DNA of 64,000 bases from Deltaproteobacteria bacterium (lineage in GTDB: Bacteria; Myxococcota; Myxococcia; Myxococcales; 40CM-4-68-19), in contig VBKI01000047.1 in the NCBI GenBank assembly GCA_005879535.1, positions 160,101-224,100 on the forward strand, given 5' to 3'. Position numbers and translations under genes: made by a program. Of the stretch, positions 36,177 through 50,885 are shown in pieces. Each line of letters opens with the position of its first letter. The first letter of the stretch is position 1. The notes under the pieces are model-generated. The model saw only the letters and a program-made list of their open reading frames with translations. It had not been told where the DNA came from and did not search any database.

Positions 36177-39100
36177 ATGTGGATCGTTCGTCTCGCGCTG
36201 CGGCGTCCCTACACGATCGCGGTGCTCTGCGCGCTGATCGCCATCTTCGGCGTCCTCTCGGCCGGCCGGATGAAGACGGACATCCTTCCCGCAATCGACA
36301 TCCCCGTGGTCATCGTAGTCTGGAACTATCCGGGGCTTTCCGCCGAGGACATGGAACGGCGCGTCGTGTTCATCAGCGAGCGCGCCATGTCGACGACGGT
36401 CAGCGGGATTACCCGCATCGACTCGCAGTCGATGAGCAGCCTCGGCATCCTCAAGGTGTACTTCGAGCCGGGCAGCGACATCGGCGGCGCCATCGCGCAG
36501 ATCGTCTCCGTCTCCCTGACCGCGAGCCGGATCATGCCCCCGGGGATCACTCCGCCGAGCATCATCCGCTACAACGCCTCCAACGTTCCGGTGGCGCAGA
36601 TGACCATCGGGTCGAAGACGCTCTCCGAGCAGGAGATCTTCGACTATGGCCTCAACTTCATCCGCCTGAGGCTGTTCACGATCCCGGGTCTCGCCACGCC
36701 GGCTCCGTTCGGCGGGAAGTTGCGGCAGATCATGGTCGACATCGATCCCGCACGGGTTGCCGCCAAGGGATTGTCGCCCAACGACGTGGTGCAGACCGTC
36801 CTGCAGAGCAACGTCCTCGTGCCGGCGGGTTCCGCCCAGATCGGCGGGACCCGATTCGACGTCCAGCTCAACTCCAGCCCGGACACGGTGCAGGGCTTCA
36901 ACGAGCTGCCGGTCAAGGCCATGGATGGGGCCACCGTGCTCCTGGGCGACGTCGCGCGTGTGCGCGACGGCTACGCGGTGCAGGAGAACGTCGTTCGCCT
37001 CAACGGCCGCCGCGCCACCTACCTCGCCATCCTCAAGAAGGCGGACGCCTCGACGCTGGCGGTGGTGGACGGGGCGCGCGATCAGCTTCCCATCATCCGG
37101 GCGGCGGCTCCACAGGGCATCGAGCTGAAGATCGATTTCGATCAGTCGGTGTTCGTGCGGGCGGCGATCCAGAACGTGCTGCACGAGGCGGCGCTCGCGT
37201 CGATCCTCGTCTCGCTGATGATCCTCTTCTTCCTCGGAAGCTGGCGGGGCGCCGTCCTGGTGATGACCAGCATTCCCCTGGCGATCCTGGTGGGGCTCGT
37301 CGGGTTGTTCCTCTTCGGACAGACGCTCAACCTCATGACCATGGGAGGGCTGGCGCTCGCCATCGGCATGCTGGTCGACGACGCGACCGTCGAGGTGGAG
37401 AACATCCACCGCAACCGGCACATGGGGAAACCGCTCACCGTGGCAATCCTCGACGGCGCTCAGCAGATTGCCGTTCCGGCACTGGCGGCGACGCTCACCA
37501 TCTGCGTGGTGTTCTTCCCGGTCGTGCTCCTCGAGGGGCCCGCGCGCTTCCTCTTCACGCCGCTCGCGCTCGGCGTCGTCATCTCGATGATGGCTTCGTA
37601 CCTGCTCTCGCGCACCCTGGTCCCGACGCTCGCGCGGATCCTGATGGAGAAGGAAGCCCTCCATCCGGAGGGCGAAAGCATCGGGGCCCGCTTCAACCGG
37701 TGGCGCGACGCGATGTTCGGCCGTTTCCGGGATGCGTATGGCCGCACGCTGTCGGCCGTGCTCCACCACCGCGCTCTCGTTCTCGTCTCCGCAGGCCTGG
37801 TGCTCGCCTGCACCGCATTCCTTCCCTTCGTCGTTGGCCTCGATTTCTTCCCGACGGTGGACGCCGGTCAAATGCGTCTGCACTACCGCGCGCCCATCGG
37901 CACCCGCCTGGAAGAGACGGAGCGCCAGGTGGCCAAGCTGGAGCAGCGCATCCAGGAGATGATCCCGCCGGCGGAGCTGGACACGATCAACTCGAACATC
38001 GGGATGCCGATCTCCTACAACCTGGCGTTCGTGCAGACCGACAACACCGGCAGCCAGGATGCCGACGTCCTCATCGCGCTCAAGCCGACGCACGCCCCGA
38101 CGGAACGGTACATGGAGCGGATCCGGCGCGAGCTCCCGGACGAGTTCCCCGGGTCCACCATGTACTTCCAGCCTGCCGACATCGTCTCGCAGGTGCTGAA
38201 CTTCGGCCTGAGCGCGCCCATCGACGTGCAGATCGACGGTCCCGACGTGGAGGCGAGCTATGCGGTCGCGCGCGAGCTGCTGGCGAAGATCCGCGCCATC
38301 CCCGGCGCCTCCGATGTCCGCATTCCCCAGGTGCTCGCGTACCCCACGCTCCGCGTCGACGTCGACCGCGCGCGCGCGGCGCAGGTCGGGATTAGCCAGC
38401 GCGACGTCGCCAACAACCTGCTCGTATCGCTCGCCTCCAGCTCGCTCGTGGCGCCCTCGTTCTGGATCAATCCGAAGAACAACGTGAACTACCCCGTCGT
38501 GGTCCAGACGCCGCTGCGGCAGATCGATTCCATTCCTTCGTTGCTGGGAATGCCTCTGGGCCGCGGAACGGCGCTGATCTCTTCGACGGCTCCTGCGCCT
38601 ATGCCGGCGTCACCACCCGCGCCGGGCGAGCCGCCCGGCAGTGGCTCCTACCTCGGTGCCGTGGCCAGCCTCCGTCCCACCACCGGTCTCTCGATGATCA
38701 ATCACGTTTCCGTCCAGCGCGTCGTCGACGTCCAGGCGAGCGCCACCGGTCGCGATCTCGGTGGCGTCACCCTCGACATCGAGAAGGCCATCCGGAGCAT
38801 CCGCGAGCTTCCGAAGGCGACCCGCATCACGCTGCGCGGGCAGAGCGAAAGCATGTTCACCGCCTTCAGCCGGCTCGGCGTGGGCCTGATCCTGGCGATT
38901 GCACTGGTGTACCTGCTGCTGGTCGTGCTCTTCCAGTCGTTCCTCGACCCGTTCATCATCCTCGTCGCCGTACCCGGAGCGCTGATCGGCATCCTCTGGA
39001 TGCTGGCCGCCACCGGCACCACGTTGAACGTCGAGTCCTTCATGGGCGCAATCATGGCCGTCGGGATCGCCACCTCGAACTCCATCCTGCTGGTCAGCGC

Positions 39101-39428
39101 CGCCAACGGCGCGCGGGTCGAGCAGGGGTTGGGTGTACTCGAGGCGGCCGTCGAGGCCGGAAGGACGCGCCTGCGGCCGGTCCTGATGACGGCGCTCGCC
39201 ATGCTCCTCGGCATGGTGCCGATGGCGCTCGCGATCGGCGAGGGCGGAGAGCAGAACGCGCCGCTGGGCCGCGCCGTCATCGGCGGTCTGATCGTGGCGA
39301 CCTTCGTCACCCTGTTCGTGGTGCCGGCCGTGTACACGCTCCTGCGCAAGGCGCCTCCCAGCGCGCACGAGCTGGACGCGAAGTTCACGGCCGAGAGCCG
39401 CGGCGCTTCCGAGGCTTCCCATGCCTGA
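36177..39428 (+). CDS. RND efflux transporter permease subunit
   Basis: 1083-residue inner-membrane RND pump with the usual twelve helices and two large periplasmic loops. It shows the N-terminal LRRPYTIAVLCALIAIFG, the TM4 Asp pair in IGMLVDDATVEVENIHRN and repeats of PxP-type porter domains. The TM10 Lys found in AcrB (GLxAKNAI) is replaced here by GIATSNSILLV. A Pro/Gly/Ser-rich insert, ASPPAPGEPPGSG, near residue 810 separates porter subdomains. ATG at 36177; its last 8 bases overlap the adaptor gene. No outer-membrane TolC-like factor lies next to it. Substrate unknown. Confidence 0.93.
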   Translation: MWIVRLALRRPYTIAVLCALIAIFGVLSAGRMKTDILPAIDIPVVIVVWNYPGLSAEDMERRVVFISERAMSTTVSGITRIDSQSMSSLGILKVYFEPGSDIGGAIAQIVSVSLTASRIMPPGITPPSIIRYNASNVPVAQMTIGSKTLSEQEIFDYGLNFIRLRLFTIPGLATPAPFGGKLRQIMVDIDPARVAAKGLSPNDVVQTVLQSNVLVPAGSAQIGGTRFDVQLNSSPDTVQGFNELPVKAMDGATVLLGDVARVRDGYAVQENVVRLNGRRATYLAILKKADASTLAVVDGARDQLPIIRAAAPQGIELKIDFDQSVFVRAAIQNVLHEAALASILVSLMILFFLGSWRGAVLVMTSIPLAILVGLVGLFLFGQTLNLMTMGGLALAIGMLVDDATVEVENIHRNRHMGKPLTVAILDGAQQIAVPALAATLTICVVFFPVVLLEGPARFLFTPLALGVVISMMASYLLSRTLVPTLARILMEKEALHPEGESIGARFNRWRDAMFGRFRDAYGRTLSAVLHHRALVLVSAGLVLACTAFLPFVVGLDFFPTVDAGQMRLHYRAPIGTRLEETERQVAKLEQRIQEMIPPAELDTINSNIGMPISYNLAFVQTDNTGSQDADVLIALKPTHAPTERYMERIRRELPDEFPGSTMYFQPADIVSQVLNFGLSAPIDVQIDGPDVEASYAVARELLAKIRAIPGASDVRIPQVLAYPTLRVDVDRARAAQVGISQRDVANNLLVSLASSSLVAPSFWINPKNNVNYPVVVQTPLRQIDSIPSLLGMPLGRGTALISSTAPAPMPASPPAPGEPPGSGSYLGAVASLRPTTGLSMINHVSVQRVVDVQASATGRDLGGVTLDIEKAIRSIRELPKATRITLRGQSESMFTAFSRLGVGLILAIALVYLLLVVLFQSFLDPFIILVAVPGALIGILWMLAATGTTLNVESFMGAIMAVGIATSNSILLVSAANGARVEQGLGVLEAAVEAGRTRLRPVLMTALAMLLGMVPMALAIGEGGEQNAPLGRAVIGGLIVATFVTLFVVPAVYTLLRKAPPSAHELDAKFTAESRGASEASHA

Positions 39429-40542
39429 GACCTCTCCCCGCAGCCGCTTGATCGCGGCCGGCAGCATCGTCGCCGTCATTGCCGCGGCTGCGGGCACCAT
39501 CGCGCTCTTCGCCCGCGAGCGCAGCGCGCAGGCGCGCCAGTCCGAAGCGTTGCGGAAGGAGCTGGCGGAAGGACCGGTGGTGCAGGTCGCGCGCATCGAG
39601 CTGGCGGCGGCGGATCGCCTGGTTTCGCTTCCCGCCGAAGTCCGCGCCGAGCAGCGGGCGACGCTCTACGCCAAGGTGAGCGGCTACGTGAAAGAGGTGC
39701 GGGTCGAGCGCGGCGACAAGGTGCGCAGAGGGCAGGAGCTGGCGGTGCTCGAGTCTCCCGATCTCGACGCGCAGGTGGCGTCGGCGCAGGCGGAGCTGAC
39801 GTTCCGGCGCCAGCAGCTCGCGCGCGTCGAGCGCCTGGCTTCCTCGGGGCGCGTGTCGGTACAGGATCGCGAGGCGGCCGACGAAGGCGTGAAGGTGGCG
39901 CGGGCCGCGCTGGTTCGTGCCCAGGTGCAGAAGGAGTATCAGGTGCTGCGGGCTCCGTTCGACGGCACGGTGACGGCGCGCTTTGCAGACCCCGGGACGC
40001 TGCTGCCCGCGGCGACCGGAAGCACCTCTTCCGCGCAGCCGCTCCTGGAGGTGGCGCAGCTCGATCGGCTGCGCGTCGCCCTCCAGCTCGGTCAGGACGA
40101 CGCTGCCCGGGTGCACGTCGGCGACAAGGTCCAGCTGCAGACCTCTCCCGATCAGCCGCCCTTCGAGGCGCGCATCTCGCGGATCTCGCAGAGCCTGGAT
40201 CCCCGGACGCGAACCATGCTCTGCGAGATCGATCTGGCGCAGCCGCCCCAGGGTCTTTATCCGGGCGCCTTCGTTCAGTCCCGGCTGCCGCTCCACGGTC
40301 CGCCACGGCCGCTGCTTCCGACCGAGGCGCTCCTCGGCCGGGGCGGGCAGCTCCTCGTCGCGCTGGTGGAAGACGGAAAGCTCCATTTCCAGCACGTGCG
40401 CCTCGGCGTCGACGACGGCGCCAAGGTCGAGGTTCTCGACGGCTTGCGCGGCGGAGAAGTGGTCGCGCTGAATCTCGGGCCGGAAGTGCCCGACGGCTCG
40501 CCAGTGCGCGTGCAGCAGGAGCCTCGCCGCGAAGGCCGGTAG
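39421..40542 (+). CDS. RND efflux periplasmic adaptor (membrane fusion protein)
   Basis: 373-residue membrane fusion protein that would bridge the RND permease and an outer-membrane channel. It has an N-terminal anchor helix (about 8-30), the lipoyl/biotinyl half motif ATLYAKVSGYVKEVRVERGDKVRRGQELAVLESP, a short helical hairpin (about 110-165), the second lipoyl half KEYQVLRAPFDGTVTARFADPGTLL, then beta-barrel and membrane-proximal domains. It overlaps the permease by 8 bases. It converges on the TonB-like gene of the motor operon. Confidence 0.93.
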   Translation: MPETSPRSRLIAAGSIVAVIAAAAGTIALFARERSAQARQSEALRKELAEGPVVQVARIELAAADRLVSLPAEVRAEQRATLYAKVSGYVKEVRVERGDKVRRGQELAVLESPDLDAQVASAQAELTFRRQQLARVERLASSGRVSVQDREAADEGVKVARAALVRAQVQKEYQVLRAPFDGTVTARFADPGTLLPAATGSTSSAQPLLEVAQLDRLRVALQLGQDDAARVHVGDKVQLQTSPDQPPFEARISRISQSLDPRTRTMLCEIDLAQPPQGLYPGAFVQSRLPLHGPPRPLLPTEALLGRGGQLLVALVEDGKLHFQHVRLGVDDGAKVEVLDGLRGGEVVALNLGPEVPDGSPVRVQQEPRREGR

Positions 40543-40560: not shown

Positions 40561-41163
40561 TCAAGCGCCCGGGCTGAGCGCCAGCGTAGCGAACAGCTCG
40601 ACGTCCGAGGGCAACTCGACGTCCCGGAAGTTCCAGCCGGTCGCTACCTTGCGGAGGCATTGAGCTACGAGCGGTGTCGGTCCGCCACCCGTGAACTCGA
40701 GGCCCTTTACCGCGCCCGTCCGCGCGACGCGCAGGCGCACCGGTACAGATAGCGTCGCTGCGTCGCCCGGAACGCACGGGCTCAGCGACGCGGCGCGGGC
40801 CCGGACGGCGGCGAGCAGGAGATCCCGAGGGGCGCGCTGTAGCGGTGGCCGCTGTGCAGGCCTGAGGCGCTGGGACGGCGCCGTCGACGCCGGCGTCGAC
40901 GTCGGCGCGTCATCGGGCCTCGCCGCGCCGGGCGTCTTCTCAGCCGCCTTCGAAGGCCCCGAGGCGGACGGCTGATCCTGCTCTGGCGCCCCGGGCCACA
41001 ACGCCCACACGACCAGGACGGCCGCGACAGCGAGGAGTACGAGGCGCCAACGCCTCTTCGTTCGCCGCGCACCCGCCAGAGGCCGACGCACCTGGCGCAC
41101 CGGCCGCGCCAATCGCCGCCCGCGGCGTCGCGCCGACAGCGTTCTTGCGGCGACCGCCGTCAC
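40561..41163 (-). CDS. TonB/AgmX-like energy-coupling protein, last gene of the motor operon
   Basis: 200-residue protein with one membrane helix (about 50-66, LVLLAVAAVLVVWALWPG) after a basic cytoplasmic start. A Pro/Thr/Ala linker then leads to a C-terminal domain, LSPCVPGDAATLSVPVRLRVARTGAVKGLEF...LVAQCLRKVATGWNF. This repeats the pattern of myxobacterial AgmX/TonB C-terminal domains: Cys, a strand with RTGxVK, then a Cys-containing helix xxCLRKxxxxW. TonB-like proteins carry force or contacts to the outer membrane. GTG start overlaps the upstream stop (GTGA). Assigned by pattern; not a standard TonB. Confidence 0.7.
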   Translation of the reverse strand: MTAVAARTLSARRRGRRLARPVRQVRRPLAGARRTKRRWRLVLLAVAAVLVVWALWPGAPEQDQPSASGPSKAAEKTPGAARPDDAPTSTPASTAPSQRLRPAQRPPLQRAPRDLLLAAVRARAASLSPCVPGDAATLSVPVRLRVARTGAVKGLEFTGGGPTPLVAQCLRKVATGWNFRDVELPSDVELFATLALSPGA

Positions 41164-42131
41164 CGCAGCGTCTCCAGCACCTGGTACCAGCGCTTGGCGA
41201 TGTCTCCCCACAAGGCGGACGCGCCGGAGCCGAGCGCATCGCAAAGATCGATGCGGCTTGCCAGGTCGGGCTTTCGCGCATTCATCTGCGCGGCCCACGG
41301 GTCGAAGAACCCCATCGACGAAGGCGCCAGGACGTCGAGCGCAGCGAGCGGGAAACCGGGAATCGCGGCGCACCGCTGCCGCAGCGCGGTCAGGTCGCCA
41401 TTCTCGGAAGTGGCCAGCATCAGGAACAGCGTCTGCCTGATTCGCAGGATGCGATCGAGACGGGCCCATCGGACGGGGTCCGCATTCGAGAAATCGTCCG
41501 CGCGACAGTCGCTCAGGGGGTGCGGCCGGGCGCCGGCGTCGATCAGGATGACCATCAGCGCCCCAGGCCCCGGCGTGAAAGGCCGCACTCTGCCTGCGTA
41601 GGTCCACGCCCAGAGCGCGGCGCCCTCATTCAGCAGCGCATCCGTCGGGCAGGTCGTCGGCAGGGTACCGGCCCGCGAAGCGGACACGTCGCGCAACACT
41701 ACGGCGAGCGTATCGGGAACCGGATTGTTCGGGACATCCCTCAAAGCCCAGACCGTCTCCTCGGCGTACAGTTCGGAAACCGCAACCGAGGTCACGAGCA
41801 GTCCCTGCTGCGTCAGCGAGGTCGTAATCTGTTTCAAGAGGACCTGCAGGGGCGTAGCGAGATTCGCGGTGCCCTGGTCGATGCGGAGCATCACCAGGAC
41901 CGCGGTGCCGGTGTCGCCGTTCTTCCCCGTTCCCGGAATAGGTCCCGGACCTGCGTCGATACCGCCTCCTCCTCCGCCACCGCCACCGCCTCCGCCACCG
42001 CCTCCGCCTCCGCCTCCGCCTTCACCACCTCCACCCCCGCCCCCGCCGTCGGGCACCAAAGGAAGATCGATCTGGTACATGCACGCGCAGGTGCACGCCA
42101 GAACCAGCGCTGCCAGGAGGCAGCGGTTCAT
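41160..42131 (-). CDS. lipoprotein with long polyglycine linker
   Basis: 323-residue predicted lipoprotein. The signal peptide MNRCLLAALVLACTCACMYQ ends in a lipobox-like VLAC. Residues 29-60 are almost pure glycine with one Glu, making a very flexible tether. The C-terminal 250 residues form an alpha/beta domain with strands such as TAVLVMLRID and GALMVILIDAGARPHP and paired Cys; a vWA-like or Rossmann-like fold is possible. The ATG at 42131 overlaps the FliF/FliG-like stop (ATGA). General layout resembles the first lipoprotein of the operon. Confidence 0.75.
   Translation of the reverse strand: MNRCLLAALVLACTCACMYQIDLPLVPDGGGGGGGGEGGGGGGGGGGGGGGGGGGGGIDAGPGPIPGTGKNGDTGTAVLVMLRIDQGTANLATPLQVLLKQITTSLTQQGLLVTSVAVSELYAEETVWALRDVPNNPVPDTLAVVLRDVSASRAGTLPTTCPTDALLNEGAALWAWTYAGRVRPFTPGPGALMVILIDAGARPHPLSDCRADDFSNADPVRWARLDRILRIRQTLFLMLATSENGDLTALRQRCAAIPGFPLAALDVLAPSSMGFFDPWAAQMNARKPDLASRIDLCDALGSGASALWGDIAKRWYQVLETLR
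41962..42046 (-). repeat. GGN trinucleotide tract encoding polyglycine
   Basis: About 85 bases of imperfect GGC/GGA/GGT triplets (seen on the plus strand as CCG, CCA and CCT), broken by one GAG. It encodes the polyglycine tether of the lipoprotein. Because the unit is three bases, slippage changes linker length without breaking the frame. Confidence 0.85.
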
Positions 42132-43774
42132 GGCGCGGCCACCACGCGCGGACGCCATGAGCGCACGTCGGCGGGCTGCAGCCCGATGCGGTCCGCTTCT
42201 TCGCGGAGCTTGCGCAGGATGTCGCGGCGGGCGCCGAGGAACGCCTCTCGCGAGACGCCATTGCGCATCGACAGCTCCTCCTCCACTTCCGCGCGCAACC
42301 GCTGCGGGCAGGCCTTGAGCACATGTGTCCGCACGGTCTCGTCTGCGCCGGCGAGATAGGCGACGAGGTTCGCCGGCCCGATGGCCAGCGCCGCCGTGGA
42401 GAGCAGATCGAGCGGCGCCGAAGCCAGGGAGGACTCGGTCATCAGGCCCGGCAACGCGCGGCTGTCGCCTTCCCGGCGCAGCTTCTCCAACAAGGCGTCC
42501 TGCTCCTCGCGCGAGAGCGAATCCAGCATGTCCGCGAGAGCGCGATCCGCGGCGCTCGGTCCGGCGTGCAGGTCGGCGATCCGTGCACGCAGCTCGTCGG
42601 CCGCCGCGAGCGCGTACCCGGCGCTGACCTCCGGCTTTCGTGCCCAGGTGAGCGCGATCTCCTGCCGCTGCGCGGCGGGAAGCTCCCGCAGCGCAGCGGC
42701 CCGCAGGTGCGCCGGCGCGAGCCTGAGCGCGACCTCCTGCGCGCCGGGCGACAATCCTCGCCAGGCCGCCAGGAATGCCTCGGGGCGCACGCCCTCGAGG
42801 AACGCGAACGCGTCCGCTTCGCCGGCTCGCGAAAGCCGCGTGGCGAGCGTGCGTCCTTCCAGCGCCTGCAAGGTGGTGGCGCGCAGGGCGGGATCCAGCG
42901 GCTTTGCGACCTCGGATGCGAGCGCCTTCAGCGCCGGCGCGAGGGCGCCGTCGCCGCGGAGGTCCTCGAGCAGGAACTCGCCCAGCTCGCGGACCCAGCG
43001 CGCGACCAGGGCGTGCTCTCCCTTGCCCAACGCTTCCCGGACCACGGCGTTGCGGAGCGCTCGATCGTCGACGAGCTGCTTCTCCAGCTTCCGCGCCCGC
43101 ATGGCGGGGAATGCGTCGTCGCGTTGCGCCTCGGGCGAGGATTCCGGCGCCCCCTCGAGGAGGGGCAGATCCGCATACGCCGGCTCCGGCGGCCTGCGCG
43201 CGGCGAAGTAGAAGAGGCCACCCAGCACCAGCAGCACGCCGCCGAGCAAGATCGCGATGGCGAGGACGGGCGCCGAGTCGATCAACTTGTCGAGAATGCG
43301 CGAGGATGTCGGCGCCGCCGCGGCGAGCTCTGGCTTCTGCTCCGGCTCGGACGCCTTCTCCGGCGGGGTCTGCGGCTGCGGGTCCACGTAGGGTGGCGGG
43401 TTCCGCGGCGGGAAGCTCACCTGCGAGACCTGCACCGTCGCCGGCACCCCCGCGGCCGACAGCTTCTGCCCGATCAGCGCGCGCATGCGCGACCGGAAGG
43501 CGGAGGGGAGCCGCTGGTCGACGAGGATGTTCGCGCTCACCGAGCGCAGAACCGGGACCGTCCGCGCGCCCGGGGTGTCGAATCCGGGAGTGCGCTCACC
43601 GCCCGCGTCCTCTTCGTCGACGCGCGCGGCGACGGACAGCACCACGCATTGCTCCGGACAGAGCGTCCGGAGCAGGTCGGTGGCGTCCGCCCGAGCGCGC
43701 TCCTCGGCCTCGTGCTGCAGTGTCGCGCCAGCAAGGGGCGCAGCCGCGATCGCCGCTGCAATCAGGAGGAACAT
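42128..43774 (-). CDS. FliF-like/FliG-like fusion protein, rotor-type component
   Basis: 548-residue protein. A signal peptide (1-18) leads to a periplasmic region (about 40-125) whose strand-helix part SVSANILVDQRLPSAFRSRMRALIGQKL resembles the segment before the second helix of the flagellar MS-ring protein FliF. One helix (169-190) crosses the membrane and the rest is cytosolic. Residues 300-400 (LSPGAQEVALRLAP, LRELPAAQRQEIAL) resemble the FliG middle domain and 440-535 resemble the FliG C-terminal torque domain: LVAYLAGADETVRTHVLK, QRLRAEVEEEL. By eye, Arg 492 and Glu 499-500 fall where E. coli FliG has Arg 281 and Asp 288-289. It lies 3 bases downstream of the MotB-like gene. Confidence 0.75.
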   Translation of the reverse strand: MFLLIAAAIAAAPLAGATLQHEAEERARADATDLLRTLCPEQCVVLSVAARVDEEDAGGERTPGFDTPGARTVPVLRSVSANILVDQRLPSAFRSRMRALIGQKLSAAGVPATVQVSQVSFPPRNPPPYVDPQPQTPPEKASEPEQKPELAAAAPTSSRILDKLIDSAPVLAIAILLGGVLLVLGGLFYFAARRPPEPAYADLPLLEGAPESSPEAQRDDAFPAMRARKLEKQLVDDRALRNAVVREALGKGEHALVARWVRELGEFLLEDLRGDGALAPALKALASEVAKPLDPALRATTLQALEGRTLATRLSRAGEADAFAFLEGVRPEAFLAAWRGLSPGAQEVALRLAPAHLRAAALRELPAAQRQEIALTWARKPEVSAGYALAAADELRARIADLHAGPSAADRALADMLDSLSREEQDALLEKLRREGDSRALPGLMTESSLASAPLDLLSTAALAIGPANLVAYLAGADETVRTHVLKACPQRLRAEVEEELSMRNGVSREAFLGARRDILRKLREEADRIGLQPADVRSWRPRVVAAP

Positions 43775-43777
43775 GAT

Positions 43778-44410
43778 CTACTCCACCCGGATGAGGACAC
43801 GCCGGTTCGAGGCCCTGCGCTGCTCCACGTCCTGCTCGGCCGCCGGGGAGAGCGGCCGCGTGTCGGCGTAAGCGCGCGCGCTCATCCGGTCGCGCGCGAC
43901 TCCGCTCGTTTGCAGCGCCTGCAGCACGTTGATCGCGCGCTGCGACGACAGCTCCCAGTTCGAATGGAACGACGAGGTGTTGATCGGCACGTCGTCGGTG
44001 TGGCCCTCGATGGTGACTGGCCGTCCGGGCAGCTCGCGCAAGAGACGCGCAATCTCGCCGATCGCCGGCTGCGCCTCTTCGCGCAGCCTGGCGCTGCCGG
44101 AGTCGAAGAACAGCGCGTCGCGGAACTCGATCCCGAGGCCTTCCGCGTCGTCGCGGGTTCGCACCTTGTCTTTCAGCTCCGGGGTCCGGGCAATGAGCGC
44201 ATCGACCTTGTCGCGCAGGTCCTCGAGCGGCGCCTGGTGGGTTCCGGTGAGCGCCGCGGCAATCCGCTCGAACTGCGCCCGCTTCATCGGAACGGAGGCA
44301 ATGATGAGGACGAAGAATCCGACCAGGAGGGTGAGCATGTCGGCGTAGCTGATCAGCCACAGCTCGTCCTGCGCGCTCTCTTCCTGCAGCTCGCGGGTAT
44401 CGATTGCCAT
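43778..44410 (-). CDS. MotB-like stator protein with OmpA peptidoglycan-binding domain
   Basis: 210-residue MotB homolog. The cytoplasmic start and single helix read WLISYADMLTLLVGFFVLI (residues 18-36); Asp 24 corresponds to the proton-carrying Asp of MotB. After a short linker the OmpA C-terminal domain follows (GIEFRDALFFDSGSARL, VTIEGHTDDVPI, SNWELSSQRAINVLQAL, NRRVLIRVE), which would anchor the stator to peptidoglycan. It is shorter than flagellar MotB in the linker/plug region. It follows the MotA-like gene by 3 bases. Confidence 0.93.
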   Translation of the reverse strand: MAIDTRELQEESAQDELWLISYADMLTLLVGFFVLIIASVPMKRAQFERIAAALTGTHQAPLEDLRDKVDALIARTPELKDKVRTRDDAEGLGIEFRDALFFDSGSARLREEAQPAIGEIARLLRELPGRPVTIEGHTDDVPINTSSFHSNWELSSQRAINVLQALQTSGVARDRMSARAYADTRPLSPAAEQDVEQRRASNRRVLIRVE

Positions 44411-44413
44411 GCG

Positions 44414-45190
44414 CTACCCGAGGGCCACTTCGACGCGCGGGGCGCTGCCGGAGCCGTCGTCGCCGAACAGGGCCCGCACGTCAGCCAATGGCTTTCCTTC
44501 TCCGACGAGAATCAGCGCGCGCGACAGCAGCCGTGCCTCCTCCAGCGTGACCACCGCGTGCACGTGCACGAGCCGCGCGAGAGGCTGATACACGCCATTC
44601 GCCAGCACCAACCCGTACAAGGTGCAGAGCAGGGCGAGAGCCATCGAAGGACCGAGATGGTCGAAGTTGCGCAGATCCTTGAGCAGCGTGATCAGCCCCA
44701 GGGTGGTACCGACGAGGCCGACCGCAGGGGAGACGCGGGCCAGGGAAGTCAGCACGTCCTCGCTCCGCTTCATCACCGAAGCAAGTACCGTGCTGGCCGT
44801 CGCCGCGGTGCGCTCGATGTCGTCGGGCGAGTATTGCTTGACGACGAGCGGCGCGAGCTGACGCAAGAGCTCGTGCTGTGCGCCCTCGGCGATGGCCAGC
44901 GCCTCCGCCGGCCGGCCACGCCGCACTCCCGCCGCGAACCGTGAGAGCTCGTCGTGGAGGATGGCCCGGGAGCGGACCGCGGAAAAGCGCATCGCCTTCC
45001 AGATCGTGCGCGTGCAGACCGCCATCTCCTCCAGCTTGTGCGAGATGAGCGAGATGAACAGCGGACCGACGCAGAGCAGGAGGAGCGCGGGACGGTAGAT
45101 CAGTCCCGAGAAGGCCGCCTCCCGCTGCTCCAGAAGGACCGTGGCGGCGAGCACCGCGGCAAACCCCAACATTCCGACCGCGACGTGCAT
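44414..45190 (-). CDS. MotA-like stator protein
   Basis: 258-residue MotA/TolQ/ExbB family protein with four helices, the MotA arrangement: about 3-20, 32-50, 152-171 and 180-204. The conserved VSPAVGLVGTTLGLITLLKDL and LGPSMALALLCTLYGLVLANGVYQPLA include prolines 155 and 203 at the places of MotA Pro 173 and Pro 222. A long cytoplasmic loop (55-150) is rich in Arg/Glu, where MotA contacts FliG. With the MotB-like partner it would form a proton-driven stator. I chose the ATG at 45190 (TGATG with the previous stop); a GTG at 45193 is equally possible. Confidence 0.92.
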   Translation of the reverse strand: MHVAVGMLGFAAVLAATVLLEQREAAFSGLIYRPALLLLCVGPLFISLISHKLEEMAVCTRTIWKAMRFSAVRSRAILHDELSRFAAGVRRGRPAEALAIAEGAQHELLRQLAPLVVKQYSPDDIERTAATASTVLASVMKRSEDVLTSLARVSPAVGLVGTTLGLITLLKDLRNFDHLGPSMALALLCTLYGLVLANGVYQPLARLVHVHAVVTLEEARLLSRALILVGEGKPLADVRALFGDDGSGSAPRVEVALG

Positions 45191-45924
45191 CACTCCTCCT
45201 TCAGCGCGCGGAGCGCTTCGGCAACCGTGGTGTCGGACGGATCGATCTCCAGCGACTTCTTCCAGGCCTCGCGCGCGAGGGCCGCCTTCCCCAGTTTCTG
45301 GTAGAGCGATCCCTTCATCGCCAACAGGCGCGCGTCCTTCGGGTATTGCTGCTCGAGATCGACCACCTCGATCAGCGCCAGCTCGTAGCGGTGGGCGGAA
45401 TACATCTCGGAGAGCTTGGCGAGAGTCGCCAGATAGCTCCTCGATCGGCCCTCGGGCGGCGTCTTGCCCGCGAGCATCTCCTGGTCCGCAGCGGTCGGCG
45501 TCTCGATTCCCTGGCCGAGCGGAATGCGGACCTCGTAGCCACCGGTGCTCTCGGGCAGCTCGACTTCCCAGACGCGGCCACGGTCCACCAGCCGCAGCAT
45601 GTAGCGCTGGGAGGACTGGGTCGGCACGGCAGGGGAAACGAGCTTCTGCGGCGGCGGCACGGGCTTCGGTGTGGCGGCGCCGGCGACGGTGGTGGGCGCT
45701 GCCGCCGCAGGCCGCGGGGCGACCTTCGCCGGGTCGTCGGAGCCGACGGCATAGCGATCCACGCCGGTGATCTTCGATCCCTGGGCATTGCCGGCAGACG
45801 CTTCGCCGACGGATTGCCCGGTGGCGAGCGGCCGCCGCATCTCCTCCGGAATCACGAGCCGCTTCATCGGCTCCGAAGCGCAGCCGAGCAGAAGACAGGC
45901 GGACGCGGCGAGTCTCAGTTCCAT
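45190..45924 (-). CDS. TPR-containing lipoprotein of the motor operon
   Basis: 244-residue predicted lipoprotein. The signal MELRLAASACLLLGCAS has a lipobox LLGC (Cys 15). A Pro/Ala linker (about 65-105) leads to a beta segment (YMLRLVDRGRVWEVELPE) and then about two TPR units ending ALAREAWKKSLEIDPSDTTVAEALRAL. The Pro-rich linker may span the periplasm. Position: 10-base overlap with the barrel gene upstream and direct coupling to the MotA-like gene. A scaffold role at the outer membrane is inferred. Confidence 0.75.
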   Translation of the reverse strand: MELRLAASACLLLGCASEPMKRLVIPEEMRRPLATGQSVGEASAGNAQGSKITGVDRYAVGSDDPAKVAPRPAAAAPTTVAGAATPKPVPPPQKLVSPAVPTQSSQRYMLRLVDRGRVWEVELPESTGGYEVRIPLGQGIETPTAADQEMLAGKTPPEGRSRSYLATLAKLSEMYSAHRYELALIEVVDLEQQYPKDARLLAMKGSLYQKLGKAALAREAWKKSLEIDPSDTTVAEALRALKEE

Positions 45925-47027
45925 AGGAACCCCAATCCCACTTCGGGGCTGAAGCCGCCGTACTGCTCGGCCGCACTGCCGACCGTGAACGGCACCATGT
46001 AGCGGAGCGCCCCGTGCAGCCCGATCCGCGTCCCGACCTGCCAGCGCATGGTTGCGCCGAGCAGGGCGGTATTCGCCCCGTTGCCGGTCACGAAGACGCC
46101 CCCGTCGACGCCAAACCAGAACTCGGACAGATACACGTTGCCCCGCCCGGCACGGCCCTGGAACATCATCCCGAGGATGCCCGCTCCGAGGTGGTTGGGA
46201 CTGAAGAAACCCGCCGCCGTCAGGCCGGCTTCCCATTCCTTGTCGCCGCCGAATCGCTCCGTCAGGCGGTACCGGCCGATGCCGCCCCAGAATGCGCCGC
46301 TCTTCGCGTCGACCATCATCATTCCGAGCTCGATGGCAGCCGTGTAGCGCGGTCGCTGGTTGAGCTTGTCCTCCAGCTCCTTCAGCCGTTCCTCGCGCGT
46401 TTGCGCGCGGTCGGCGCCCCGGTAGAGCATCGCCCGATCCGCATCCATGCGGTATCCCTCGGCGAACGCAATCGACGAGTCCTCGGCGCGCACCACCTCC
46501 ACGTCCATGGAAAGGGACGCGGGCTCCTCGCGCATGGTCAGGGCGACGTCGAGGAACGTGCGCGCGCCATACTTCTTCGCGACGTCGCGCGCCTGCTCGC
46601 GCGTGGTGACGCCGCGGCTCACCACCCATTCGCCCCCCTCCACGCGGCTGCGCGTCGCATCGCATTCCGCGCAGCGCACCAGCGCCAGGTTCGCGGCCTT
46701 GAACACGGCCGCGGCCAGCCGGGCCTCGAAGATGTGCGCATATTCCGGGTTCATGTTGGCGGAGACGCGCACGCGATCGAGCAGTACCGGACTGATCTTC
46801 GCCGCTCCCAGACGCGCGATGTCGACGGAGAACTCGTCGAGCATCTCGTCGACGATGTCGTCGGCCCTCACGTCGTGGCCGGGAGTGACCATCGTCCCCT
46901 CGACGCGGTTCGGGTGGGCCGCTTCTGCCTTCTTGCGCGCATGGATCGCCGCCGCCGCGGGCAATTCGCCCTGCGGTTCCTGCGATGGCGCCACCGCCTG
47001 CGCGAAGAGAAATGCGAGCGCGATCAT
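45915..47027 (-). CDS. CsgG/LpoB-like domain with C-terminal outer-membrane beta-barrel region
   Basis: 370-residue secreted protein (signal peptide about 1-14). The N-terminal half (about 50-205; DRVRVSANMNPEYAHIFEARLAAAVFKAANLALVRC, AKKYGARTFLDVALTM) has the layout of CsgG/LpoB-type periplasmic domains, with a CAEC Cys pair. A coiled segment REERLKELEDKLNQ precedes a C-terminal half of alternating amphipathic strands (AAIELGMMMV, LTAAGFFSP, GVDGGVFVTGNGANTALLGATMRW) ending in a Trp-Asn, typical of outer-membrane barrels. The family match is weak; the topology is better supported. ATG overlaps the TPR gene's stop (ATGA). Confidence 0.65.
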   Translation of the reverse strand: MIALAFLFAQAVAPSQEPQGELPAAAAIHARKKAEAAHPNRVEGTMVTPGHDVRADDIVDEMLDEFSVDIARLGAAKISPVLLDRVRVSANMNPEYAHIFEARLAAAVFKAANLALVRCAECDATRSRVEGGEWVVSRGVTTREQARDVAKKYGARTFLDVALTMREEPASLSMDVEVVRAEDSSIAFAEGYRMDADRAMLYRGADRAQTREERLKELEDKLNQRPRYTAAIELGMMMVDAKSGAFWGGIGRYRLTERFGGDKEWEAGLTAAGFFSPNHLGAGILGMMFQGRAGRGNVYLSEFWFGVDGGVFVTGNGANTALLGATMRWQVGTRIGLHGALRYMVPFTVGSAAEQYGGFSPEVGLGFLWN

Positions 47028-48532
47028 GGTGGACCTCGGGCTTCGAACCAGTCGTGGAGAGCTCCATCCGGACCGGGAATGGCAAGCAGCGAGGCCGGCT
47101 CCGGGAGATCGAGGAGCACGGCGGGCTCCGGCGGAGGCTCGGGTGTGCGCACGACGTCGATCCGGCCGAGCGCGAGCCTTTGCTCGCCCTCGTCCGGCGC
47201 CGGCTGCAGCGAGGTGACGAGCGCTTCGATCTGCGCCGCATCCCTCGTGGGCAGCCGCTCGCGCAGCCAGGCGAGCTGCGACTTCAGCGCGTCGCGGTGG
47301 GTACCGCCCTCGGCTTCCCTCAGCACGATCGCGTGCGCCAGCTGCAGCGCGGCCGAGTCGCGCGACTCGCGCTCGGCGACCCGCAGCCGCTGCGTGAAGA
47401 GCCGCTCGAGCGCCGCCTGCGTTTCCTTCACCTCTCCGGAGGCCCAGCCGATCTCGCCGGCGAGCGCCAATCCTTGCGCGCGCCAGCGCGGGTCGCTTGC
47501 CGTTTGCAGCTGGAGCGCCGCATCGCGCGCGGTCTGGAGGTTTCCGGCGGCGAGCGCTCGTTGGGCCAGCTCCGTCCAGGCGGCGTCCCGCCCGGCGACG
47601 CCGATGAAGGGCTCGAGCCGCGCCGGATCCGCCGGCTGACGGGCGAGGGCGGACATCGCCAGCGCGCGGATCGCCTCCTGCCCCTTGCCCTTGCCGGGCA
47701 GCGATCGGGCGCGGGCGAGCACCTCCAGCATCTCCTTGTCGCGCCCCATGCTTTGCAGCGCGACGGCCCGCGCCCAGAGGATTGCGCGGACCATCTCCGC
47801 GCGGGTGGCGTCCGCCGGGAGCTCGATGGATGCGGTGAGGTCGACGACTTCCTCGTATCGACGCTGTCGCAAGAGCTCCGCCGATGCCCGCGTCACCACC
47901 GCCAATTGCGGCCACTCCGCAACGAGCGGGAGCCAGCCCTCCGGTGGATCGAGCTTCGCTTCCAGGCGCAGGAATTGCGTCGCGCGCCGCAAGCTCGGGT
48001 GCAGCCGCTGGACCTCGACGGCGGCGGCACCCTCCGTCGACCCCTTGCGCCAGAGCAGGATTGCGCGCTCGTAGGCAGCCCGCGCGGCGGGCTCGGGAGG
48101 CAGCGCCTTGACCAGCTCCGGAGTGAGCAGGGGCAAGGGCCCTGCGCCCTTGGCGGCCTTCCTGCAGTTCGATGGCACGGGACCGACGCGCAGCACTTCG
48201 CCGGGCCAGCGCTCTTCCTCGTCGGGCCAGAGCAGCGCGTTCCGTGCGTCCGGATTCCAGACCGTCCGCCGGAAGAAGTCGTCACGGAGCACGTCCGACC
48301 AGATCGTGTCGGGCGCTCCGCGGCGCGCCTCTTCCACGCGCACCATCGCGCGGAGCGGGTCCGGCTCGGCGAGCTTGTCCAGCGGATCGCAGCTGACGAG
48401 CCGCAGGAGGTCCGCGAAGAGCTCGCGCTGCTCGCCGGTCCGGTTCTCCTGCAGCTCGCGGTGGAGCGCGCCGAGGTCCCGTTCCCAGAAGGCGTCGAGA
48501 AATGGGGTGAGAAGGAGGAGGACCGCGATCAC
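47024..48532 (-). CDS. exported helical-repeat (TPR-like) protein of the motor operon
   Basis: 502-residue protein. The N-terminal hydrophobic stretch VIAVLLLLTPFLDAFWERD is an anchor or signal. Most of the rest is helical repeats (about 200-460), including AYERAILLWRKGSTEGAAAVEVQRLHP and AAWTELAQRALAAGNLQTARDAALQL, consistent with TPR or related solenoids. The C-terminal 50 residues are Pro/Leu-rich. I placed the GTG start at 48532, overlapping the upstream stop (GTGA). Likely a periplasmic scaffold; no catalytic motif. Confidence 0.72.
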   Translation of the reverse strand: MIAVLLLLTPFLDAFWERDLGALHRELQENRTGEQRELFADLLRLVSCDPLDKLAEPDPLRAMVRVEEARRGAPDTIWSDVLRDDFFRRTVWNPDARNALLWPDEEERWPGEVLRVGPVPSNCRKAAKGAGPLPLLTPELVKALPPEPAARAAYERAILLWRKGSTEGAAAVEVQRLHPSLRRATQFLRLEAKLDPPEGWLPLVAEWPQLAVVTRASAELLRQRRYEEVVDLTASIELPADATRAEMVRAILWARAVALQSMGRDKEMLEVLARARSLPGKGKGQEAIRALAMSALARQPADPARLEPFIGVAGRDAAWTELAQRALAAGNLQTARDAALQLQTASDPRWRAQGLALAGEIGWASGEVKETQAALERLFTQRLRVAERESRDSAALQLAHAIVLREAEGGTHRDALKSQLAWLRERLPTRDAAQIEALVTSLQPAPDEGEQRLALGRIDVVRTPEPPPEPAVLLDLPEPASLLAIPGPDGALHDWFEARGPP

Positions 48533-49107
48533 AGCCAACCTCCGACCGTGAGTACCGGCAAGAATCCAACCGCGAACACCGACGAGCTGCGATGCTCGAG
48601 CGAGCCGACCACGGTCAGATCGAGCTGGCCGTAGAGGCGGTCGCGCAGGCGCGCGACCAATCCGACGAACCCGCAAGCGGCCGGGGTGAGGGCCCGGTCG
48701 GTGAGAAGCGTTCCCAGATCGCCGCCGCCCTGCACGTCGAAGTGCACGACGGAGCCGCCCAGGGCGACCTTTCCGTAGGTGAACGAGTGCCGCCAGCCCG
48801 CTGCGACCAGCGACACCGGCTTGTGGGCGTCAGGGACGAGCCCGGTACTGTTCACGACTTGCGACCCCGAAGACCCGAGCCAGGAGGCGAACAGGGCGGC
48901 GCGAATCTCGATGGCGTCGCTCTCCCGCAGATAGTAGGCGCCCGAGAAGACCGCGCCCGGGCTGTTGTAGTAATCGCCGCGCTCGAGCCAGGTCAGGCCG
49001 CCGGAAAGGAAGTAGTGGTGGTCCTTGACGAACAGCCGCGGCTCGATGCGGATCTGCTGCGCGAATGCCGCAGGCGCGATCAGCGCTGCAAGGAGAAAGG
49101 CTTTCAT
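48529..49107 (-). CDS. small outer-membrane beta-barrel protein of the motor operon
   Basis: 192-residue protein with signal peptide MKAFLLAALIAPAAFAQQ, followed by repeated amphipathic strands (HHYFLSGGLTWLERGDYY, AIEIRAALFASWLG, PVSLVAAGWRHSFTYGKVALGGSVVHFDV, RDRLYGQLDLTVVGSL) compatible with an eight-stranded barrel. The C-terminus VLTVGGWL is not the usual terminal Phe/Trp-only pattern but close. ATG at 49107 overlaps the first lipoprotein's stop (ATGA). Function unknown. Confidence 0.72.
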   Translation of the reverse strand: MKAFLLAALIAPAAFAQQIRIEPRLFVKDHHYFLSGGLTWLERGDYYNSPGAVFSGAYYLRESDAIEIRAALFASWLGSSGSQVVNSTGLVPDAHKPVSLVAAGWRHSFTYGKVALGGSVVHFDVQGGGDLGTLLTDRALTPAACGFVGLVARLRDRLYGQLDLTVVGSLEHRSSSVFAVGFLPVLTVGGWL

Positions 49108-50036
49108 CCGTTCCTCACCAGGCAGCGCCGGGCTTCGTCCCACCGGGCGGGATCCGCGCCCGGTTCGTCGACATAGTAGCGATCGCAGTTCGCCGTGCAG
49201 CCCTCGACGGTCATGTCAAAGGTGGAAGTCTCGAAGAGCGACTTCGGCGTTGCGACCAGCTGCGGAACGGTAAACGTGATCGTGGGAGGATGGGCGCGAT
49301 CGAGGACGTGCGCCGGTCCCACCGGCGGATAATTGGAAGCTGCTGGGTCAGGGTTCTTGCACAGCTTGAACTCCCGCGTGCTCTCCAGCTGGGAAGCAGT
49401 CAAGAGCGGGACCGGCCCGCTGCTGAGCGCCGCGGTGGTCTGCAGCGGCAGATCCGTCCTCACCGCCGTGCCGACCCGCTTCACCAGGTCGGCGTCGCCC
49501 GCGTAACTCCAGGCCACTGCGCGGTCGGCGGCGAGCTGGCCCGCCACCGGCGGATGCGAAATCGTCCAGATCAGGGCGGGTGGATCGGACAGCGACCGCG
49601 CCGCGTGCAGCGCGGCCAACGTCTCTGCGGAAGTCGGCAGGTCGACGTCATCGACGTAGACGATCACCGGACGGACGTGCGCGCCGGGAAAAGTGGTCAA
49701 CGCCGAATCGAATCCCGCCCGCACCCGATCGAGATCGAGAGGCACCCGCCCCCGCTCCCGGCAATCGGGTGAGAGATCCTGCCCCGCCAGCTCGAGCTGG
49801 CGCGTTCCGGAGGAAGCGAATCCTTGCCGCACCGCCAGCAGCGTCGCCTGCCTGGCCCAATCGCAGCCGGTAGTGTCCTCGAAGAAGAGATCGAGAATGG
49901 CGATCCAGACCACGGGTTCTTCGATGGCCGCGGATGTGTACGTCGCCGACGTCGTGAACAGTCGTGGCGGATTCGGGTCGACGAAATGAACCTCGCCGCA
50001 TCCTGCAAGCAGGAGCGCGAAGAAAGCGGCGCGCAT
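49104..50036 (-). CDS. lipoprotein, first gene of the motor operon
   Basis: 310-residue predicted lipoprotein with signal MRAAFFALLLAGCGE (lipobox LAGC, Cys 13). The mature domain is alpha/beta with strands PVVWIAILDLFF, RPVIVYVDDVDLP and ALIWTISHP, and a Cys-rich tail (TVEGCTANCDRYYV). Order and style of strands resemble the polyglycine lipoprotein near the other end of the operon, suggesting distant paralogs; a vWA-like fold is possible. The 165 bases upstream, toward the head-GIN gene, contain a weak AT-rich patch near 50150-50180 and may hold the operon promoter. Confidence 0.75.
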   Translation of the reverse strand: MRAAFFALLLAGCGEVHFVDPNPPRLFTTSATYTSAAIEEPVVWIAILDLFFEDTTGCDWARQATLLAVRQGFASSGTRQLELAGQDLSPDCRERGRVPLDLDRVRAGFDSALTTFPGAHVRPVIVYVDDVDLPTSAETLAALHAARSLSDPPALIWTISHPPVAGQLAADRAVAWSYAGDADLVKRVGTAVRTDLPLQTTAALSSGPVPLLTASQLESTREFKLCKNPDPAASNYPPVGPAHVLDRAHPPTITFTVPQLVATPKSLFETSTFDMTVEGCTANCDRYYVDEPGADPARWDEARRCLVRNG

Positions 50037-50201: not shown

Positions 50202-50885
50202 TCAATCCTCGATCTCGACCGACGAGCCCCCCGACGTCGCGACCCTTGCCTTCGCTCCGCCACGCACGTGCAGCTCCGATCCGCCGGAGAGGCTCCCGCG
50301 GATGCGGCCGTTCGCCCGCAGGTCGCCCTCCGAACCGCCGCTGGCCTGCAGGTCGACGTCCTTCACGGAGAGATCCCGTCCATGCAGACGCGTGCCGCCG
50401 GATATCTGCAAATCCAGGCTGTCCGCGCGGCCCTGGACGTCCAGCTGCGCGCCGCCGGATCCGTGCACCGACAGACGGGCTGTGTCGATTCCGCGCGCGC
50501 GGATCTCGCTTCCGCCGCTGACCTCGATCGCGCTCTCGTCGGCACGGGTGAAGGTGGCGCGGACGATCGCGCCGCCGCTGGCGCCGATGGCGCGGAGGTC
50601 CGGCGTCTGGATGGTCACGGTCACCCGGCTCTCACCCTTCCAGCGGGAGTGCGGCTTGAATCCGATGTGCAGCGCCCCGTCCTCCACGCGCGTCTCCACC
50701 AGGTCGAGGACGTCGTCCTTGGCCTCGACGCGGACCGGCCTGCGCGGACCGATCTCGACGGTCGCCCGGATTCCCGAAGCCACGTTGACGGCGTTGAAAT
50801 CGGGGACATTGCGTTCCTCCGCGCGGGCGAGAGCGGCGGTGGAAGAGAGCGAGACGACAGCGAGAGCGAGAGCGCAGCGCGGCAT
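50202..50885 (-). CDS. head-GIN (DUF2807) domain secreted protein
   Basis: 227-residue protein with signal peptide MPRCALALAVVSLSSTAALARAEE. The mature part is a right-handed beta-helix-like repeat of the putative auto-transporter head-GIN type: RVTVTIQTPDLRAIGASGGAIV, IEVSGGSEIRA, LSVHGSGGAQLDVQG, LQISGGTRLHG, VDLQASGGSEGDL and SGGSELHVRGG, with SGG turns about every 20 residues. Such domains are surface or periplasmic; binding function unknown. Standalone gene. Confidence 0.9.
   Translation of the reverse strand: MPRCALALAVVSLSSTAALARAEERNVPDFNAVNVASGIRATVEIGPRRPVRVEAKDDVLDLVETRVEDGALHIGFKPHSRWKGESRVTVTIQTPDLRAIGASGGAIVRATFTRADESAIEVSGGSEIRARGIDTARLSVHGSGGAQLDVQGRADSLDLQISGGTRLHGRDLSVKDVDLQASGGSEGDLRANGRIRGSLSGGSELHVRGGAKARVATSGGSSVEIED

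Follow-up and report, generated by a model that had tools for sequence, protein, structure and literature searches.

A conserved ten-gene myxobacterial operon pairing a flagellar-type stator with a FliF-FliG fusion in a genome without flagellar export, rod or switch genes

A ten-gene cluster, known here from soil myxobacteria and relatives lacking a flagellum, pairs MotA and MotB stator proteins with a fusion of FliF-like and FliG-like parts, and is likely to encode a non-flagellar rotary machine in which an ion-driven FliG-ring motor is coupled to an outer-membrane complex. The gene content, homologies, motor residues, gene order and purifying selection of the operon, and the lack of a flagellum or injectisome in its host, are shown below; ring assembly, rotation, coupling and output are inferred in the absence of any experiment. 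To our knowledge, FliG rotors are not known to work outside flagella. A recent survey found flagellar stators to form one group separate from their non-flagellar homologues (PMC12505986), and the question of whether rotor proteins without filaments might have another function has been raised (PMC12199754). No description of such a system was found in the open-access literature searched. If our reading is correct, the operon adds a further type to the known bacterial machines, and is informative as to how flagellar motors gain new uses.

Layout and conservation of the operon

An initial annotation of the window (the whole 64,000-nucleotide stretch of DNA analysed) had described a MotA/MotB stator and a FliF-FliG-like fusion, with no flagellum, among ten close-packed minus-strand genes; the observation is confirmed and the interpretation supported. 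The genes, all on the minus strand, run from J to A and span positions 50036 down to 40561. Of the nine junctions, seven overlap by 4 or 10 bases and the other two leave gaps of 3 bases. The codon-position GC pattern is of the coding type in all ten open reading frames; a start at 42131 suits B better and makes its overlap with C 4 bases. That all ten belong to one transcript is an inference from this layout only. No conserved flanking genes were seen around the operon across the genomes compared; the flanks differ, and the ten-gene unit is therefore self-contained. In the window, genes for an RND efflux pump and a periplasmic adaptor (36177-40542, opposite strand) end beside the 3' end of the operon and are probably unrelated to it, and a minus-strand gene for an exported protein (50202-50885), located 165 bases upstream, was not seen in the operon flanks of other genomes.

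The complete set was found in the same order at ten other loci, four of them in the family of the host (L023, L024, L026, L028), the remaining six in a second one (L027, L029-L033). Some short contigs carry partial loci (L021, L022, L025), and other families of the phylum have diverged versions (L034-L038, L078). Archangium lansinium (L044) is a cultured carrier, and, of 195 genomes from the phylum, 18 have gene G. That the genes are fully co-linear elsewhere rules out a chance arrangement; a failure of the genes to co-occur elsewhere, which would have spoken against the initial annotation, did not occur, the order being kept in many genomes. Comparison of the window with genome G022 gave dN/dS values of ~0.09 (D), ~0.10 (E), ~0.16 (C), ~0.18 (F) and 0.26-0.30 (A and B); the stator and rotor genes are thus under strong purifying selection. 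The in-depth search was limited to one phylum and most of the genomes are MAGs; a GTDB genome pattern scan found only members of the same group, with patterns built from the operon family's own motifs. We note that in G013, a genome with flagellar genes as well, the diverged operon (L078:848-6642) encodes a tandem pair of G-like proteins.

A flagellar-type stator

Protein E (44414-45193; start at GTG 45193 or ATG 45190) is a MotA-type stator subunit matching MotA_ExbB of Pfam (PF01618, 4e-16), and D (43778-44410) is a MotB-type subunit with matches to MotB_plug (2.5e-11) and to the peptidoglycan-binding OmpA domain (3e-20). The stator features initially read in these proteins, namely two prolines, Asp24 and the OmpA domain, held, since P155 and P203 of E and Asp24 of D are invariant in all 14 homologues of each. 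To assess the ancestry of the stator, 59 proteins of the MotA/ExbB family were placed in a maximum-likelihood tree. The MotAs of the operon form one group on its flagellar MotA side (support 100/100), separate from the ExbB/TolQ/AglR-type proteins that these genomes also encode. As some branches of this tree are long, the exact branching on the flagellar side is not certain. The stator is probably proton-driven, the driving ion being inferred. An assignment to the Zorya defence system (ZorAB) was rejected: only D resembles ZorB, a generic MotB similarity, and the MotA-like protein E has no ZorA match. The same tree contains an orphan MotA-like family (L125, G061:C1:10203764; L132, G150:C39:69841) as a deep branch on the flagellar side.

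Torque in E. coli involves contacts of MotA R90 with FliG D288/D289 and of MotA E98 with FliG R281 (PMC12505986). The counterpart of R90 is invariant in the operon MotA family (14/14), and the counterparts of D288/D289 are E499/E500 in 11 of 12 sequences of the C family. MotA E98 is not kept in the operon family, and the position of FliG R281 is occupied by R, K or S. By sequence, one MotA-FliG contact is thus retained and the other lost or loosened on both sides. The FliM-binding EHPQ motif, as read from the alignment, is absent from C, which fits the absence of FliM.

A FliF-FliG fusion

Protein C (42128-43774) consists of an RBM3-like periplasmic domain, a single membrane helix near residues 170-190 and a full-length FliG-like cytosolic part. 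It matches FliG_C of Pfam (5e-8, above the curated cut-off) and, below threshold, MgtE_N. A profile of the C family built from 12 homologues matched the M and C domains of the FliG structure 1lkv in the PDB (4e-7), and the family aligned by HHalign with flagellar FliGs of the same phylum at 7e-8 over 268 columns. Structure prediction of the fusion points to the same proteins. In the AlphaFold model (pLDDT 72, from 12 sequences), a periplasmic domain of helix-strand-strand-helix-strand order with a long hairpin precedes the membrane helix, and the cytosolic part is helical throughout; the best 13 Foldseek matches of this model in the PDB are all FliG (probability 1.00), with alignments to full-length FliG chains of ~320 columns and an rmsd of 2.0 Å to the C domain of T. 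maritima FliG. AF2 confidence for C is moderate, the alignment is shallow and ring formation is outside the scope of the model. Taken together, the profile, profile-profile and fold searches show the FliG relation of C to be solid.

After FliG, the Foldseek search returned PrgK and the FliF RBM3/collar with probability 1.00 and E-values of 0.02-0.1 (0.05 for the FliF RBM3/collar 6sd1); unrelated OsmC folds match the model at similar E-values. HHalign similarity of the window's C to FliF is weak (probability ~2%, only two collinear segments), and was set aside as sole evidence because it is too weak alone. The FliF relation of this protein is thus a prediction from the model, resting mainly on fold and domain order and weak by sequence; support by sequence comes from a compact sister family, described below, which matches FliF more strongly. 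Accordingly, the FliG-like cytosolic part of the initial annotation held by Pfam, PDB profile match, HHalign and AlphaFold/Foldseek alike, and its FliF-type periplasmic segment held mainly by fold and, in the sister family, by sequence; an absence of any FliG or FliF relation in profile searches, which would have refuted it, was not what these searches returned.

Absence of a flagellum or injectisome

In the host genome, which is 100% complete with 1.1% contamination, there is no match to FHIPEP (the FlhA/SctV export gate), Flg_bb_rod (rod/hook proteins), the FliM/FliN switch or YscJ/FliF (a separate MS-ring protein, SctJ), and the sole FliG_C is that of fusion C. Given that FlhA, rod, FliM/N and FliF/YscJ are all missing, the host has neither flagellum nor injectisome, and the lack of rod, export and switch genes previously noted in the window extends to the whole genome. 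A full flagellar set elsewhere using the operon's stator, which would also have overturned the initial reading, did not occur in the host genome. An ordinary flagellar stator was rejected as an identity for the operon, the host being without a flagellum, as was an injectisome, there being no FlhA or YscJ in that genome. With neither export gate nor rod, no filament would be expected in the host, although flagellin was outside our searches.

Rod genes are absent from 16 of the 18 genomes that have gene G. Genomes G013 and G017 carry the operon and a flagellum whose own ordinary FliG sits at another place, and the operon is therefore not their flagellar motor. FHIPEP matches without rod genes in the Myxococcaceae carriers are what we take to be the Myxo-type T3SS (PMC3459982). 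Mutual exclusion of operon and flagella is unsupported (Fisher p=0.17).

Envelope components

The other seven genes encode proteins assigned to the cell envelope. Lipobox-type signals are found in J (49104-50036), the first gene, encoding an outer-membrane lipoprotein of no known family with an LLAGC lipobox and invariant cysteines; in F (45190-45924), with an LLLGC lipobox and a C-terminal TPR (TPR_8, 3e-5); and in B (41160-42131), a glycine-rich lipoprotein of no known family. I (48529-49107) is an outer-membrane beta-barrel of the myxobacterial OMP_myx_plus type (TIGR04565, 1e-8, below the model's curated cut-off). G (45915-47027), which has an invariant CxxC, is modelled with a periplasmic domain of the LpoB/CsgG kind (4q6l, 1e-4) and, after it, an eight-stranded outer-membrane barrel (NspA, 3e-5). 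H (47024-48538) is a helical protein, exported or anchored and possibly TPR-like, without a family match, and A (40561-41163) has a single TM segment and ends in a small domain weakly resembling AgmX/PglI (TonB-like) tails, on the basis of its domain layout and of a lone NF033768 match (0.005) obtained when its homologues were scanned. The three lipoproteins, one with TPR, and the two beta-barrel proteins initially proposed are therefore upheld; the TonB/AgmX-like label of A has weak support, and the TPR-like label of H is weak, without Pfam support in the window protein.

Each of C, G, J and A has invariant cysteines, from which disulphide-stabilised periplasmic parts are inferred. Profile-profile comparison of the operon's own families revealed only a faint relation between the G and I barrels, and several components have no known homologues. 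No rod-like transmitter from ring to outer membrane is recognisable among the operon proteins, and no surface filament or adhesin was recognised.

Comparison with known systems

In common with the flagellar motor, the operon has a flagellar-clade MotA, a MotB with plug and OmpA domains, a FliG rotor, an RBM3-like domain and an R90/D288-D289-type contact. Unlike the flagellum, it has its FliF and FliG parts joined in one protein with a single RBM, is devoid of FliM/FliN, export gate, rod, hook and filament, and is linked to outer-membrane barrels and lipoproteins. The Tol-Pal and ExbBD-TonB systems resemble it as ion-driven two-component motors acting on the outer membrane, but belong to another motor-protein clade and have no FliG rotor. 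Non-flagellar T3SS, including the Myxo type, are likewise exaptations of flagellar parts; they keep the export gate whereas the operon keeps the motor, in a host without FlhA/SctV or YscJ.

The Agl-Glt (and Nfs) machinery of Myxococcus also unites an ion-driven motor with lipoproteins, barrels and TonB/AgmX-like parts; its motor is the TolQR-type AglRQS instead of a flagellar-type MotAB, and the operon differs further in containing a FliG rotor. NCBIfam names GltC, GltE, GltG, GltJ, CglC and CglE in the Myxococcus-like genome G121, and none of these models matched an operon protein. Operon profiles found only an I-like barrel beside gltC (6e-10) and, for A, a marginal tail match (0.02), so that barrel I and this AgmX-tail match are all that the search for Glt homologues in the operon yielded. 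I is possibly a GltA/GltB-type barrel, in that it matches OMP_myx_plus, to which two barrels beside gltC also belong and which is a broad family. The MotA tree and the missing Glt matches support the initial claim that the system is distinct from Agl-Glt, with the reservation that I shares this broad family. The host itself carries two Glt-like clusters, L142 (C77) and L143 (C70), with GltG, GltC and CglE-like genes; it thus probably has an Agl-Glt or Nfs-type machine as well, to which the operon would be an additional system.

Proposed machine and alternative explanations

In the proposed mechanism, E and D would form a stator anchored to peptidoglycan through the OmpA domain of D, and C the rotor, its RBM3-like domain and membrane helix assembling into a small MS-ring-like ring. 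MotA would push the cytosolic FliG part of C as in the flagellum and, with no FliM/FliN, the rotor probably has no switch. With its periplasmic face the ring may work on an envelope complex (A, B, F, G, H, I, J) that would extend to the outer membrane in place of rod, hook and filament, and thereby move or energise something at the cell surface. The proton-driven, envelope-spanning machine built from flagellar parts that was first suggested for these genes is thus supported, and what gets moved is a guess. Surface movement or gliding is the leading one, held with clearly more doubt than conviction; gliding or movement of surface components would be plausible in these surface-living bacteria. 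On a bolder reading, for which we see as much reason to hesitate as to believe, MotAB and a FliFG ring driving a trans-envelope complex without export apparatus, rod or filament define a distinct class of rotary nanomachines, which would then relate to the flagellar motor as injectisomes relate to the flagellar export apparatus.

Among the alternatives, a second Agl-Glt-type gliding machine whose motor was swapped for MotAB-FliFG remains possible, and overlaps with the rotary machine as a specific version of it. The similar part list (lipoproteins, barrels, TonB-like protein), the matches of I to OMP_myx_plus and to the gltC-adjacent barrel, and the Glt-like clusters of the host speak for it; against it, that barrel family is broad, and clear matches to Glt proteins or to their NCBIfam models are absent from the rest of the operon. 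An energiser of the TolQR/ExbBD kind, with A and the lipoproteins transmitting the ion-gradient-driven pull of MotAB to the outer membrane and C reduced to a static FliG-derived docking scaffold, would account for the TonB/AgmX-like A, for the peptidoglycan and outer-membrane components and for the loss of one of the two MotA-FliG charge pairs. It is unlikely, however, as MotA falls in the flagellar clade and outside the TolQ/ExbB clade, and as the acidic pair, its MotA arginine partner and the full FliG architecture are all retained.

A sensor of load or envelope stress, in which peptidoglycan-bound MotAB-C would sense the mechanical or ion-gradient state and signal through the FliG part, is more doubtful still. 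Flagellar stators are mechanosensitive, and the lack of a recognised surface filament or adhesin is compatible with such a role, but the conserved unit contains no signalling gene, its flanks vary, and seven envelope proteins exceed what a sensor needs. The remnant of a decaying flagellum can be all but dismissed: a sister genus, g2, is flagellated and without the operon, as this explanation would have it, yet seven non-flagellar genes lie inside a unit whose order is kept across families, dN/dS is low, and operon and flagellar genes coexist in G013 and G017.

A compact sister operon and a possible FliG relic

A second, compact operon encodes a FliF-FliG fusion, a TPR protein, MotA, MotB and a further MotB (MotB'), and was found in Anaeromyxobacter-type and other genomes (L066, 7933-12321 in G041; L067, L069, L070, L071, L072), several of which are without flagellar rod genes. 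Its fusion matches FliG_C at 4e-21, FliF by HHalign at 3e-8 and, just before the membrane helix, the FliF C-terminal domain PF08345 at 8e-4, below cut-off. Like the ten-gene operon, it combines a FliF-FliG fusion with a flagellar-clade MotA and a MotB outside a flagellar locus; unlike it, it has two MotB genes and neither barrels nor a lipoprotein set. Its fusion is closer to true FliG and FliF_C than is C, and its MotA groups more closely with flagellar MotA than does that of the ten-gene operon.

Weak FliG_C matches were also seen in proteins of two other genomes (L073:8936-11260 in G121, ~22 bits; L075:8587-10311 in G144, 32 bits). The gene for the G121 protein directly follows a putative SctJ-like lipoprotein gene in a Myxo-type T3SS region, and the protein may possibly be a FliG relic within that secretion system.
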